A stretch of 32,106 bases of DNA from an uncultured Lachnospiraceae bacterium (GTDB lineage: Bacteria > Bacillota > Clostridia > Lachnospirales > Lachnospiraceae). The DNA is taken from contig CAMNAQ010000007.1 of the NCBI GenBank assembly GCA_946531495.1, forward strand, positions 1-32,106, in the 5' to 3' direction. The notes under the pieces were generated by a model, which worked only from the letters and a program-made list of their open reading frames with translations, had not been told where the DNA came from and did no database searches. The position numbers and the translations under genes were made by a program. Below, piece by piece: positions 4,982 through 20,460 of the stretch. Within the stretch, counting starts at the first letter, position 1. Each line of letters begins with the position of its first letter.

Positions 4982-6388
4982 TTATTCTACGCCGTTCCAG
5001 CAGTAAGTACAGAGATCATCATGCGGAAGTCCCGTTGAATCGAGCATATCATCAAGTCTTGCATATCTGAGGGAGGTAAAGTTCATTTCTTTTCTGATCT
5101 CTTCTATCATAGCAGCATACTTCTCTGTATCCGGATCCGCATACTGCTTGAGAACTTCTTCCGTAACATTGCCGCCCTCGAGTCTTTCGATGACTCTTCT
5201 GGTGATAAGATCCATTTCAGACTTTGATCTTGAGAAGTTCAGATATTTACATCCGTATACAAGAGGAGGACATGCAGGTCTTACATGAACTTCCTTTGCG
5301 CCAGACTTGTACAGAAATTCGGTTGTCTCGCGAAGCTGTGTTCCTCTTACGATTGAATCATCGATGAGGATGATGCTTCTGTCCCTGATAAGCTCCTCTA
5401 CCGCAAGCAGCTTCATCTTGGCAATCAGATCACGCTTGCTCTGAATGGTGGGCATAAAGGATCTTGGCCAGGTAGGCGTGTACTTTATAAAAGGTCTGGA
5501 GAACGGAATTCCCGATGCATTGGCATATCCGACCGCATGAGCGGTTCCGGAATCAGGAACGCCGGCAACAATGTCAGCCTTAACATCATCCCTTCCGGCC
5601 ATTGCGGCACCGTTTCTGTATCGCATCTCCTCAACAGACATTCCTTCATATGAGCTTGAAGGATATCCGTAATATACCCAGAGGAATGTACAGATCTTCT
5701 TCTTGTCACCGGGAGCCTTCAATGTGACACAGTTGGAATCGGTGACACATACGATCTCTCCGGGGCCCAGTTCCTTATAGTTATTGTATCCTAGATTCTT
5801 ATATGCAAAATTTTCAAAGGAAATACAGAACGCATTATCCTTCTTGCCTACGACTACGGGAGTTCTGCCAACCTTATCTCTTGCGGCATAGATCCCCTTG
5901 GGTGTAAGCAGAAGGAGCGATACGCTTCCGTCAACCGATTCTAGGGCATAGCTTATTCCATCGATCAGATTTTCCTTGGTATTGATAAGAGCGGCGATAA
6001 GCTCTGTTGCATTGATCTCGCCCGAGCTCATCTCCATGAAATGGCTGAGTCCCCTGTCGATAAGATCCCTGGCAAGCTCTTCCGAATTGTTGATCTTGCT
6101 TACGGTAACTATCGCATAGGTGCCATGGTGTGAATGAATGATAAGAGGCTGGGGTTCATAATCAGAGATCGAACCGATGCCCATATATCCGTCCATCTCC
6201 TGGACCTCTTTATCGAATTTGGTCCTGAAGGGAGAATTCTCTATATTGTGGATCGCACGGTCAAAACCGTTTTTTCCGTATACGACAAGTCCGCCTCGTC
6301 TTGTTCCGAGATGCGAATGATAATCCGTACCGAAAAAGAGATCAAATACACAACTTTCCTTAGCAGCTACTCCAAAAAAACCACCCAT
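4982..6388 (-). CDS. Amidophosphoribosyltransferase (PurF)-like protein lacking the N-terminal catalytic Cys
   Basis: PRPP loop SIILIDDSIVRGTQLRETTEFLYKSGAKEVHV, GVPDSGTAHAVGYA, RPFIKY; the Ntn domain starts MGGFFGV instead of the expected CG(I/V)FG. Confidence 0.85.
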   Translation of the reverse strand: MGGFFGVAAKESCVFDLFFGTDYHSHLGTRRGGLVVYGKNGFDRAIHNIENSPFRTKFDKEVQEMDGYMGIGSISDYEPQPLIIHSHHGTYAIVTVSKINNSEELARDLIDRGLSHFMEMSSGEINATELIAALINTKENLIDGISYALESVDGSVSLLLLTPKGIYAARDKVGRTPVVVGKKDNAFCISFENFAYKNLGYNNYKELGPGEIVCVTDSNCVTLKAPGDKKKICTFLWVYYGYPSSSYEGMSVEEMRYRNGAAMAGRDDVKADIVAGVPDSGTAHAVGYANASGIPFSRPFIKYTPTWPRSFMPTIQSKRDLIAKMKLLAVEELIRDRSIILIDDSIVRGTQLRETTEFLYKSGAKEVHVRPACPPLVYGCKYLNFSRSKSEMDLITRRVIERLEGGNVTEEVLKQYADPDTEKYAAMIEEIRKEMNFTSLRYARLDDMLDSTGLPHDDLCTYCWNGVE

Positions 6389-6481: not shown

Positions 6482-7156
6482 TTAATTTATAAGTCCCGTC
6501 AGTCTGACGGTATTATCCTTTGCATCTCCCCTGAAGACCGCAGAGCCTGCAACGATCACATTTGCTCCGGCCTTCATGATATCAGCGATATTATCTCCGG
6601 TAATTCCGCCGTCAACCTCGATATCGGTATCAAGTCCCTCCGCAGTCATAAATGCCCTGAGTGCCCTTACCTTATCAATGGTCTCCGGTATAAGCTTTTG
6701 GCCTCCGAAACCGGGTTCCACAGTCATCACTAGGATCATGTCCGCTTCTTCCGCATATGGAAGCACGGCGCTTATCGGTGTTCCGGGCTTTATTGATATG
6801 CCGGCCCTGACCGGAACGCCCTTCAGGCTTGTGGTTTCCTTGATATGTCTTATGATACGCCCGGCATTGTCCGGATCAGCCTCAATATGGAAGGTGATCC
6901 CGTCAGCACCGCATTTGGCAAATTCCTCGACATATCTGTCCGGTTTTTCGATCATCAGATGTGTATCAAAAAAAAGATCGGTACACTTTCTGATGGAAGT
7001 CATCACCGGCATCCCGAAGGATATGGACGGGACAAATATCCCGTCCATGACATCAAAATGGAGATAGGTCGCCCCACCGCTTTTAACCGCACTTATCTGT
7101 TCTCCGAGAACAGTAAAGTCAGCTGCAAGTATCGAGGGGGCTAAGATATTACTCAT
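6482..7156 (-). CDS. rpe: Ribulose-phosphate 3-epimerase
   Basis: LAPSILAADFTVLGEQ, HFDVMDGIFVPSISFG, VMTVEPGFGGQKLIPETIDKVRALR, DIEVDGGI. Confidence 0.95.
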   Translation of the reverse strand: MSNILAPSILAADFTVLGEQISAVKSGGATYLHFDVMDGIFVPSISFGMPVMTSIRKCTDLFFDTHLMIEKPDRYVEEFAKCGADGITFHIEADPDNAGRIIRHIKETTSLKGVPVRAGISIKPGTPISAVLPYAEEADMILVMTVEPGFGGQKLIPETIDKVRALRAFMTAEGLDTDIEVDGGITGDNIADIMKAGANVIVAGSAVFRGDAKDNTVRLTGLIN

Positions 7157-17383: not shown

Positions 17384-18238
17384 TTATTTCTCCTTTTCGA
17401 GAGCAGAATAAATATCCCTCTTGCTTACACCTCTGTCAGCGGCGGCGGCCTTCATGGCTTCCTTTCTGTCCATGCCCTTTGCTTCATACATGGCAACATG
17501 GTCGGGGATGCTCATGCTTTCCCATTTGGCATTTTCTTCCGCTTCTATGGATCTGATATCCCTTCCCTCTATTACAAGAACATATTCTCCTCTGGGATCT
17601 TCATTTTCATACCTGAGCAGAGCGCTGTTTATCGTGGTATGAATCACCTCTTCAAATTTTTTGGTAAGCTCCCTGCAAAGCGCAATCTTCCTGTCTCCTC
17701 CGCAGTAAAGTGACGAAGCTAAGTCTGAAAGCGTTCCCTTTAGATGGTGCGGAGCTTCATAGAGGATAAAAGTCCTGCTCTCATTCTCAAGACGCTTCAG
17801 CGCCTGTTCACGCTCCTTCTTTTCACGGGGAAGGAAGCCTTCGAAAACGAATCTTCTCGTATCAAGGCCAGAAAGCGTAAGGGCGGTGATACATGCGCAC
17901 GGGCCTGGAAGAGAGGTCACGGTTATCCCGGCTTCAATACACATTCTTACAAGAACCTCACCCGGATCGGAGATCACCGGTGTTCCCGCATCCGTGATAA
18001 GCGCTATGTTCTTTCCCTCATGAAGCTGGGCTATCAGTATATGAGCCTTCTCCACCTTATTGAACTCATGGTAGCTGGTCATGGGAGTATGAATGTCAAA
18101 ATGATTCAGCAGCTTCAGGCTGTTGCGTGTATCCTCGGCCGCAATAAGGTCAGCGTTCTGCAGACACTCCAATATCCTCGGAGACATGTCCCCGAGGTTT
18201 CCTATGGGTGTTGCACACAGTTGTAATATTCCGCTCAT
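17384..18238 (-). CDS. rsmI: 16S rRNA (cytidine1402-2'-O)-methyltransferase
   Basis: LQLCATPIGNLGDMSPRILECLQNADLIAAEDTRNSLKLLNHF, ALITDAGTPVISDPGEVLVRMCIEAG, FEGFLPREKKER. Confidence 0.95.
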   Translation of the reverse strand: MSGILQLCATPIGNLGDMSPRILECLQNADLIAAEDTRNSLKLLNHFDIHTPMTSYHEFNKVEKAHILIAQLHEGKNIALITDAGTPVISDPGEVLVRMCIEAGITVTSLPGPCACITALTLSGLDTRRFVFEGFLPREKKEREQALKRLENESRTFILYEAPHHLKGTLSDLASSLYCGGDRKIALCRELTKKFEEVIHTTINSALLRYENEDPRGEYVLVIEGRDIRSIEAEENAKWESMSIPDHVAMYEAKGMDRKEAMKAAAADRGVSKRDIYSALEKEK

Positions 18239-18257: not shown

Positions 18258-18442
18258 GTGCACAGCTTACATATATGTTTTTTTCGATTTGTCGGAGCGC
18301 TTAATGAGCAGCTATCGACCGTGATTCGTTCCGAGGACTGTCTGAGCGAAGCAATTTCCGCAGGAACGAATCGAATATGGGCGATACCTGCGAATTTAGC
18401 AGCGCAGACCATGAGAAAAAAACATATATGTAAGCTGTGCAC
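18258..18442. repeat. 185-bp intergenic element with 28-bp perfect inverted termini and internal hairpins (MITE-like or structured RNA element)
   Basis: gtgcacagcttacatatatgtttttttc (18258-18285) is the exact reverse complement of gaaaaaaacatatatgtaagctgtgcac (18415-18442); nested gattcgttcc/ggaacgaatc (18323-18332/18363-18372) and ctgcg/cgcag (18388-18392/18403-18407). Confidence 0.9.
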
Positions 18443-18464: not shown

Positions 18465-19205
18465 TCAGAATCCGTAGAGCTCCCTGACCTCGTCGGTATA
18501 GGTTCCGTCCGCATCCTGCAGTATCAGAGGCTTTTCCACGGTAATGCGCATGTTCGCCCCGCGGACTCCTTCGATAAGAACCATATTGGGTTCACGGTCC
18601 GCCATCGGATATACAAGTCTCATCCTCTTCGGTTCGAGATTATGATCATGCATAAGGCACATTATCTCCGAAAGCCTGAAGGGTCTGTGGACCATGTAAA
18701 AATGTCCGCCGGGTTTAAGCAGTATCTCCGATTCCCGGATGACATCCTCAAGTGTGCACAGCATCTCGTGCCTTGCGATCGCTTTGGCATCGGATGGATT
18801 TACGATCCCGTGGCTCCCCTGAAGGTACGGAGGATTACATGTAATAACGTCAAAAGAGGCACGGGGGAATAACCGTCCTGCCTCTTTAATATCTCCTTCA
18901 ACAATGGATATCTTTCCTTCAAGATCGTTCATCCTGACACTTCTGTCAGCCATTTCGGCACTCTCTGCCTGGATCTCAAGTCCGGTAAGATGGGATGCTT
19001 TTGTTTTGGCGGACATGAGGATCGGAATGATACCGGTTCCAGTCCCGAGATCAAGTACTTCGGCACCTTCCTGAGCCTGTGCAAAATAGCTCAGGAGCAC
19101 CGCATCCATTCCAAAGCAGAATCTGTCCGGATCCTGAATGATCTTCAGTCCCGCTCTTTGGAGATCGTCTATTCTCTCTCTTTCCTTAAGACTGACCTTC
19201 GCCAT
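18465..19205 (-). CDS. tRNA1(Val) (adenine37-N6)-methyltransferase-like protein (TrmN6/YabB family)
   Basis: FCFGMDAVLLSYFAQ, EVLDLGTGTGIIPILMSAK, ITCNPPY catalytic motif. MAKVSLKERERIDDLQ at 19205 is the likely start; the track ORF begins at 19565 in an alternative frame over the upstream gene. Confidence 0.9.
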   Translation of the reverse strand: MAKVSLKERERIDDLQRAGLKIIQDPDRFCFGMDAVLLSYFAQAQEGAEVLDLGTGTGIIPILMSAKTKASHLTGLEIQAESAEMADRSVRMNDLEGKISIVEGDIKEAGRLFPRASFDVITCNPPYLQGSHGIVNPSDAKAIARHEMLCTLEDVIRESEILLKPGGHFYMVHRPFRLSEIMCLMHDHNLEPKRMRLVYPMADREPNMVLIEGVRGANMRITVEKPLILQDADGTYTDEVRELYGF

Positions 19206-20460
19206 TTGATGTATTGTCTCCGCCGTTTTCGGGTTTAGGCCCTCTCCCGCCGCGGTTTCTGTGATGGTGATTTCTGTGGTTTCTGCTTTGTCCTTCGCTC
19301 TGCTCACCTTCACCGGGCTGTTTCGCCTGTCCGCCCTTTTCGGATCTGTCGCCGCCGTTTTCGGGTCTGTCCCCGTTTTTCTCCGGCCTGTCACCATTTT
19401 TTTCGGGTCTGTCTCCGCCCTGGCGGTTACGGCGATCTGGTCTGTTCTTTTTGTCGCTACGCTCACCGCCCTGTCGGTCCGAGCCGCGTCCGTCGCGGCC
19501 ATCCTTAGCTTTATCCTGACGGCCTGCTTCCGCGTTCTTTTTGTTTTCTTCGGCTTTGAGTTCACGCGCTTCGTCTTCGAGAAGTGCGATCATCTCCGGT
19601 GAATCCTCCGCGGCTATTCCGATATGGGAGCCTCCGCGCTTTCCCTTCTTTCTGCGAAGAACCGTTATATCGGTTGCGGGATAATCCCTAAGCTCCTTAT
19701 CATCTCCAACCTCGACAAGGACCTTCGCAATCTGCCTGAGGACATTGATGCCGGATACTTCACCCCTCATGCCATCCGAGGTTGCGACATAGTCGCCCAG
19801 AGCAGGCATTGTGGAATTGAGCTCCTCGTATGCTTCCTCCTCATATTTGAGACAGCACATGAGTCTGCCGCATACACCCGAGATCTTTGTGGGGTTAAGG
19901 GAAAGATTCTGCTCCTTGGCCATCTTGATCGAAACCGGAACAAAATCACTTAAAAAATCGGAGCAGCACAGAGGTCTTCCGCAGGATCCGAATCCGCCGA
20001 GGCTTCTTGCTTCGTCTCTTACACCGATCTGTCTGAGTTCTATCCTGGTCCTGAAGATACTTGCAAGATCCTTGACCAGATCCCTGAAATCAACTCTCTG
20101 TTCGGCAACAAAGAAAAATATGATCTTACTGTTGTCGAATGCATATTCTACGTCGGTAAGCTTCATATCAAGGCCATGCTCTGCTATCTTATCCTGAGCT
20201 ATCCTGTATGCATTCTTCTCTCTTGCGATATTATCCTCGACCTGTCTGTCATCCGTCTCGGTCGCTTTTCTCATTATCTTTCTAAGCGGTGCGGGAATCC
20301 TCGCATCATCCACTTCCTGAACGTCACTGACAGCCTGTGCATATTCGATACCCTTTACGGTCTCGACGATCACATGGTCATCCTTTGCGATCTCCAGATC
20401 ACCGGGATCAAAGAAATAACTCTTTCCGCCCGCTTTAAATCTTACTGCTATAACCTTCAT
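19186..20460 (-). CDS. ricT: PSP1-domain protein, RicT/YaaT family, with long low-complexity C-terminal tail
   Basis: MKVIAVRFKAGGKSYFFDPGDLEIAKDDHVIVETVKGIEYA; Cys motifs GSCGRPLCC and GVCGRLMCC; tail GDRPEKNGDRPEKNGDRPENGGDRSEKGG. Confidence 0.93.
   Translation of the reverse strand: MKVIAVRFKAGGKSYFFDPGDLEIAKDDHVIVETVKGIEYAQAVSDVQEVDDARIPAPLRKIMRKATETDDRQVEDNIAREKNAYRIAQDKIAEHGLDMKLTDVEYAFDNSKIIFFFVAEQRVDFRDLVKDLASIFRTRIELRQIGVRDEARSLGGFGSCGRPLCCSDFLSDFVPVSIKMAKEQNLSLNPTKISGVCGRLMCCLKYEEEAYEELNSTMPALGDYVATSDGMRGEVSGINVLRQIAKVLVEVGDDKELRDYPATDITVLRRKKGKRGGSHIGIAAEDSPEMIALLEDEARELKAEENKKNAEAGRQDKAKDGRDGRGSDRQGGERSDKKNRPDRRNRQGGDRPEKNGDRPEKNGDRPENGGDRSEKGGQAKQPGEGEQSEGQSRNHRNHHHRNRGGRGPKPENGGDNTSNGEGQS

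Follow-up and report, generated by a model that had tools for sequence, protein, structure and literature searches.

Several kinds of short palindromic repeat are known from bacterial genomes. ERIC/RU and bcr1 are dispersed, non-coding intercistronic elements of ~100–200 bp that fold over their whole length into a hairpin, and bcr1 shows compensatory changes. MITEs are short and non-autonomous, carry terminal inverted repeats and leave both occupied and empty sites. For REP/BIME sequences with RAYT, recognition probably involves a single strand that is folded and has defined mismatches; in integron attC sites, structure is conserved over sequence and the strand-specific form is folded single-stranded DNA; in invertons, the interior between inverted repeats is found both ways round. 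The palindrome described here resembles, or may resemble, each of them in these respects. Judged against general descriptions, it differs from ERIC/RU and bcr1 in its free stem sequence, its multi-phylum tip and its inversion at orthologous sites. Unlike MITEs, it had no target-site duplication, ends common to the genus or autonomous partner that could be found, and unlike REP/BIME it is much longer, with no GTAG box noted and a Y1 transposase that is inconsistently present. It is conserved at the tip rather than at the base as in attC, lies outside cassette arrays and lacks basal recombination boxes (GTTRRRY/RYYYAAC was absent from the hairpin base, which reads GTGCACAGC...GCTGTGCAC). In contrast to invertons, a hairpin makes up its interior, neither a promoter nor a recombinase was shown, and inversion was seen between species only.

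The element was found in the window, a 32,106-nt stretch of DNA from an uncultured Lachnospiraceae bacterium, between rsmI and a TrmN-like gene, where a previous sequence-only reading had placed it; NCBIfam backs both gene names. The gap from the rsmI start (18238, − strand) to the TrmN-like stop (18465, − strand) is 226 bp, and the core motif of the element is on the + strand, with both flanking genes on the − strand. Over its initial ~110 residues (window 19186–19565), the TrmN-like ORF is of low complexity, overlaps the next ORF and has no match in relatives, so that the real start codon probably lies inside it. The features of the locus are as follows.

17384–18238, − strand: rsmI, the downstream gene (TIGR00096, E 8e-78)
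18465–19565, − strand: TrmN6-like methyltransferase gene, upstream (NF047853, E 1e-17, under the curated cut-off)
18258–18442, + strand: whole hairpin element (inverted repeat, fold z −12, copy in the nearest genome, G010)
18258–18285, + strand: left outer arm of the exact 28-bp inverted repeat, with a T7 tract at its end
18415–18442, + strand: right outer arm, with an A7 tract at its start
18294–18405, + strand: conserved interior (covariance model R1, 102 bits, E 8.9e-22)
18305–18308, + strand: TGAG, 5′ half of the tandem G·A internal loop (consensus TTAAT-GA; alignment A2)
18391–18394, + strand: CGAA, 3′ half of the tandem G·A internal loop (consensus GA-ATTTAG)
18346–18352, + strand: GCGAAGC, apical GC-GNA-GC mini-hairpin (loop census and PMC4686876)
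18333–18363, + strand: apical core GAGGACTGTCTGAGCGAAGCAATTTCCGCAG, which departs from the family consensus at two letters (AATTT instead of GAGTT)
18373–18376, + strand: GAAT, recurring 3′-side bulge (4–6 nt) under the apical stem (predicted folds)

The 28-bp inverted repeat reported for the two arms is exact, and under laxer matching the inverted repeat at the element ends covers 41 nt at 85% identity. The presence of ACATATATGT in both arms (18269–18278 and 18422–18431) and the pairing of GATTCGTTCC (18323–18332) with GGAACGAATC (18363–18372), at 100% complementarity, were also confirmed. Two other proposals were not borne out by the predicted fold: CTGCG and CGCAG are unpaired with each other, and the stem with several side arms is replaced by a single rod with internal loops and bulges. 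The + strand of the 185-nt element folds at −91.7 kcal/mol, against a mean of −45.4 for dinucleotide shuffles (z = −12), and 0 of 200 shuffles matched it. The repeat is exact and the fold lies 12 SD below the dinucleotide shuffles; chance is excluded.

Copies of the element were searched for using the covariance model R1, which gave 14 strong matches in the genus of the window. In the 167 contigs of the host metagenome assembly, which is 75% complete, only the present copy was detected. A 94% identical copy occupies the same site in G010, and the arms of the two copies differ in a co-ordinated way that preserves pairing. Among the genus genomes with a readable rsmI site, only G010 and the window carry the element there; the gap is 226–232 bp in these two carriers and ranges from a slight overlap to 69 bp in the others. 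Taken together, the rsmI, rsmD and dut gaps measure 208–247 bp if occupied, and empty ones are mostly <75 bp with some gene overlaps. The rsmD gap is 218–226 bp in five carriers and 8–120 bp in the other genomes. At dut, the element is present in G012, G019, G016, G007 and G028; G022 has a member of a different subfamily there, and G023 retains a decayed outer-stem remnant from which the interior is gone.

The element was also found both ways round at orthologous sites, in each case between species only. At rsmD it runs in the sense of the gene in G028, G012 and G026 and is reversed in G016 and G007, the reversed portion comprising every asymmetric feature out to the T/A tracts; both orientations occur among species at dut, and G010 and G030 have opposite orientations at miaB. 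All of the copies (64/64) lie outside ORFs, and the 48 located between tandem genes show no orientation bias relative to them (20 same, 28 opposite). Inverted pairs of hairpins 260–450 bp apart were observed as well, with the core strands always diverging (−,+) and no (+,−) pair (L217 2211–2589, L218 2139–2676, L219 2111–2558, L402, L403, L341 and L344).

The conservation of the fold was evaluated in 51 aligned copies, in which 29 of the 30 model pairs showed compensatory double changes. Double-change cells numbered 359 (86 in shuffled controls; no more than 68 in slid ones). Of all cells, 95.1% were paired, versus 67% after shuffling. This alignment was fitted to the model and therefore leans toward structure; a MAFFT alignment made before the model showed compensatory changes in 26 of 38 pairs. 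The outcome named by the sequence-only reading as refuting it, a single copy with no compensatory changes in relatives, does not apply: although one copy was detected in the host assembly, relatives show very strong compensatory changes, and further copies occur in related genomes. Across members, the stem sequence is free while pairing is kept.

The shared architecture consists of an outer stem of variable length (roughly 20–60 bp) at the base of the rod, a 5-bp stem ending CTT/TTAG and then the tandem-GA loop, which reads YGAR on both strands in 31 of the 45 distinct sequences. From this loop to the tip there are ~10 bp, a 3′-side bulge of 4–6 nt, a further ~10 bp and an asymmetric apical loop (5′ TGTYTGA, 3′ GAGTT) flanking a mini-hairpin, mostly GC-GNA-GC. 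The tip loop bases that the search pattern leaves free read GNA in 51 of the 66 tips counted among the matches listed, against a chance of 1/16; this census omits 10 further listed tips, all from G706, which read GGA. In copies with longer tip stems, other loops are possible. At L215 of G110, the same ~115-bp insert, made up of three hairpins, interrupts the 3′ arm at one shared position in three of four neighbouring copies (2876–2989, 5549–5662 and 6999–7113). Copies at L206, L208, L191, L413 and L447 are accompanied by part of a second, tandem copy of one of their ends.

Beyond the genus, R1 gave 26 matches in one Lachnospiraceae genome, G110, and at E ≤ 1e-5 it detected the family in 30 of 397 family genomes. 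Weaker matches elsewhere have the tip and a few unpaired motifs in common, on hairpins that are equally long with unrelated stems. The recurrent tip motif of these long hairpins is GAGGAC-TGTYTGAGC-GNA-GCGAGTT-CCGCAG. A 19-nt tip pattern matched 17 of 399 Bacillota genomes, with at least 37 copies in one, and the reversed-pattern control gave 0 in all of them. In G706 (at least 37 tip matches), 10 of 10 inspected copies lie at contig ends (L376–L385); because short-read assembly breaks at the copies in this genome, true copy numbers are probably underestimated.

A clear long hairpin bearing the tip was found on the Butyrivibrio fibrisolvens plasmid pNP243 (L340), and others on Parabacteroides and Variovorax plasmids and in IMG/VR contigs, which, judged by gene order and sizes, appear to be P2-type phages. 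In Ilyobacter the tip is present, yet the single region read there gave no clean rod fold. The likeness across phyla consists of the short tip and a similar TTA/TTTAG mid-stem motif, and common descent, resting on these two motifs, is likely but unproven. BLASTN of the window element against plasmids and phages gave 0 matches, as did a related element and a tip consensus against 5,426 E. coli genomes; to this extent, the family has no detected sequence relation to ERIC/RU. A second hairpin, of the type GGTTACTTTTCTTT...AAAGAAAAGTAACC, follows the main one in phage, Bacteroidota and Variovorax copies (L316, L318, L326, L317, L325, L339, L341 and L343–L345) and is absent in Lachnospiraceae copies. 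The Aureibacter plasmid pAT6 (L339 2976–3060) likewise has a clear long hairpin with the tip, placed within a type I-D CRISPR operon where cas7d and cas5d flank it. On another Aureibacter plasmid, pAT2 (L343), a related hairpin is immediately upstream of a pair of tyrosine recombinase genes that overlap each other and are a possible lead to a partner enzyme.

The partner and the ends of the element were analyzed in the carrier genomes. The earlier observation of no clear target-site duplication held, as none of ≥3 bp was detected at the window, genus or G586 copies. Y1_Tnp (PF01797) is present in 5 of the 14 carrier genomes and absent in G000, G007, G016 and G010, and the Y1 genes tested had 0 flanking R1 matches; a Y1/RAYT transposase was rejected as the partner due to this inconsistent presence. 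No transposase or recombinase was consistently found next to the copies, whose neighbors are diverse; those of the clustered copies are ordinary genes only. An autonomous element with the same ends was found neither near the copies nor in a non-exhaustive search with the G586, G547 and G653 ends. The copies have no coding capacity. Their outer arms and ends differ from site to site in the genus of the window and in G110; G586 holds near-identical copies with the common ends AGAAAATG...CATTTTCT, and near-identical copies also occur in G706. Several G110 outer arms end in T runs, which is suggestive of terminators. Insertion into existing terminators, considered as the origin of the unique GC-rich outer arms of G110, is not general because the trmN6–rsmI gap of the window has no such terminator.

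On balance, the window element is probably one copy of a dispersed, non-coding and non-autonomous family of DNA hairpins whose folded strand is recognised in trans. The members are dispersed, present at some sites and missing at others, conserved in structure and found in both orientations. Recognition would act on the conserved features of one DNA strand in its folded state, exposed, for instance, in a cruciform or on the lagging strand, and a putative trans-acting enzyme would read this strand and insert new copies. Mobilisation in trans is suggested because the copies are non-coding and near-identical copies exist in G586 and G706. The complementarity of the arms may be kept by selection together with arm-to-arm copying (template switching), and the near-perfect arms may recombine, or strands may switch between them, so that the interior inverts. 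The lack of a consistent transposase or recombinase, the diversity of the neighboring genes, the lack of target duplications of ≥3 bp, the roughly twofold excess of G·T over A·C on the core strand, the restriction of the observed inversions to comparisons between species and the single copy detected in the host count against this explanation. We also consider, tentatively, that the hairpins could form a cross-phylum mobile class, existing purely as a folded single-stranded DNA hairpin that re-inserts and inverts either way via a widespread putative enzyme reading the hyperstable tip and the internal mismatches.

An unlikely alternative is a dispersed intercistronic structured RNA acting as a regulator, processing site or RNase III substrate, in which case the covariation would reflect an RNA fold. 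Strong covariation, the very stable fold, the placement of most copies between tandem genes and the core-strand excess of G·T (about twice A·C) are all consistent with it. However, the copies show no orientation bias relative to the genes and lie either way round at orthologous sites, and G·T pairs are rare, making up 3% of the model pairs (42 versus 1213 Watson-Crick, with 13 A·C). In the outer arms, the core strand has 62 G·T versus 31 A·C, a mild sign that the fold of this strand matters. At the tip, a GNA triloop of DNA type caps a 2-bp stem, and RNA of this sequence has far lower stability. In DNA, the GC-GNA-GC mini-hairpin is hyperstable, with a Tm of 78 °C for GCGAAGC (PMC4686876). In Rfam 15, neither the window nor any of 11 other element loci matched a curated family at the gathering threshold. 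Lax thresholds gave nothing relevant either; matches to microRNA and SOX2OT were attributed to chance or hairpin composition, and the sRNA-Xcc1 match of one phage contig falls in a different part of the contig and has nothing to do with the element. The DNA-type tip and rare G·T pairs favor folded DNA rather than RNA as the acting form, and orientation independence and flipping likewise point to action at the DNA level. The same features (either orientation, flips and tip) disfavor the structured RNA or terminator/processing element that the sequence-only reading had offered as an option.

A DNA element useful to the host, whether a protein-binding hairpin, a BIME-like nucleoid or supercoil site, or an invertible switch for the downstream gene, is a quite improbable explanation. 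It would fit the occupation of several sites in several species, the flipping of copies and their position close upstream of the downstream start codon. At each site, however, most genus genomes are without the element, its orientation and neighboring genes are inconsistent, and the G023 dut copy has decayed.

We regard a classical MITE, moved by a DDE transposase via its terminal inverted repeats, as very doubtful. Such repeats are present, and the G586 copies are recent, near-identical and have common ends, but no target-site duplication was seen, the outer arms vary by site in the genus of the window and G110, conservation is strongest at the tip rather than the ends, and the non-exhaustive search gave no autonomous copy. 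The proposal of a MITE/REP-like non-autonomous element is partly supported: the copies are dispersed and extragenic with occupied and empty sites, but those of the genus differ in their ends, no target duplication was seen and Y1/RAYT is inconsistent, so the evidence stops short of a classical MITE or REP. A passive quasi-palindrome, functionless and immobile, whose arms were made to match by template switching during replication, would explain the co-ordinated, still paired differences between the window and G010 arms and is hardly credible, since the conservation of unpaired motifs across phyla, the unpaired tip above all, largely refutes it, and the copies are dispersed with reversed-pattern controls of 0.

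In summary, the reading we prefer is a family of DNA hairpins recognised in trans as a folded strand. Text searches of 5.39 million papers for two motifs, that of the core and that of the second hairpin, with coverage that leaves aside most subscription journals, returned nothing relevant, and the family appears to be previously undescribed as far as this coverage extends. As palindromic interspersed elements are known, it does not amount to a categorically new kind; the family is new, and unusual in the features it combines. Interspersed bacterial palindromes are usually defined by their sequence; here, the fold of the DNA is conserved and the sequence is nearly free. The conserved tip is the exceptionally stable DNA mini-hairpin known from biophysics, found here in several phyla and in phage contigs. 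The 19-nt pattern and the covariance model provide a direct handle for finding the putative enzyme that reads the hairpin, and the family offers a natural system for studying how a long palindrome survives in a bacterial chromosome, keeps its arms complementary and comes to be inverted.
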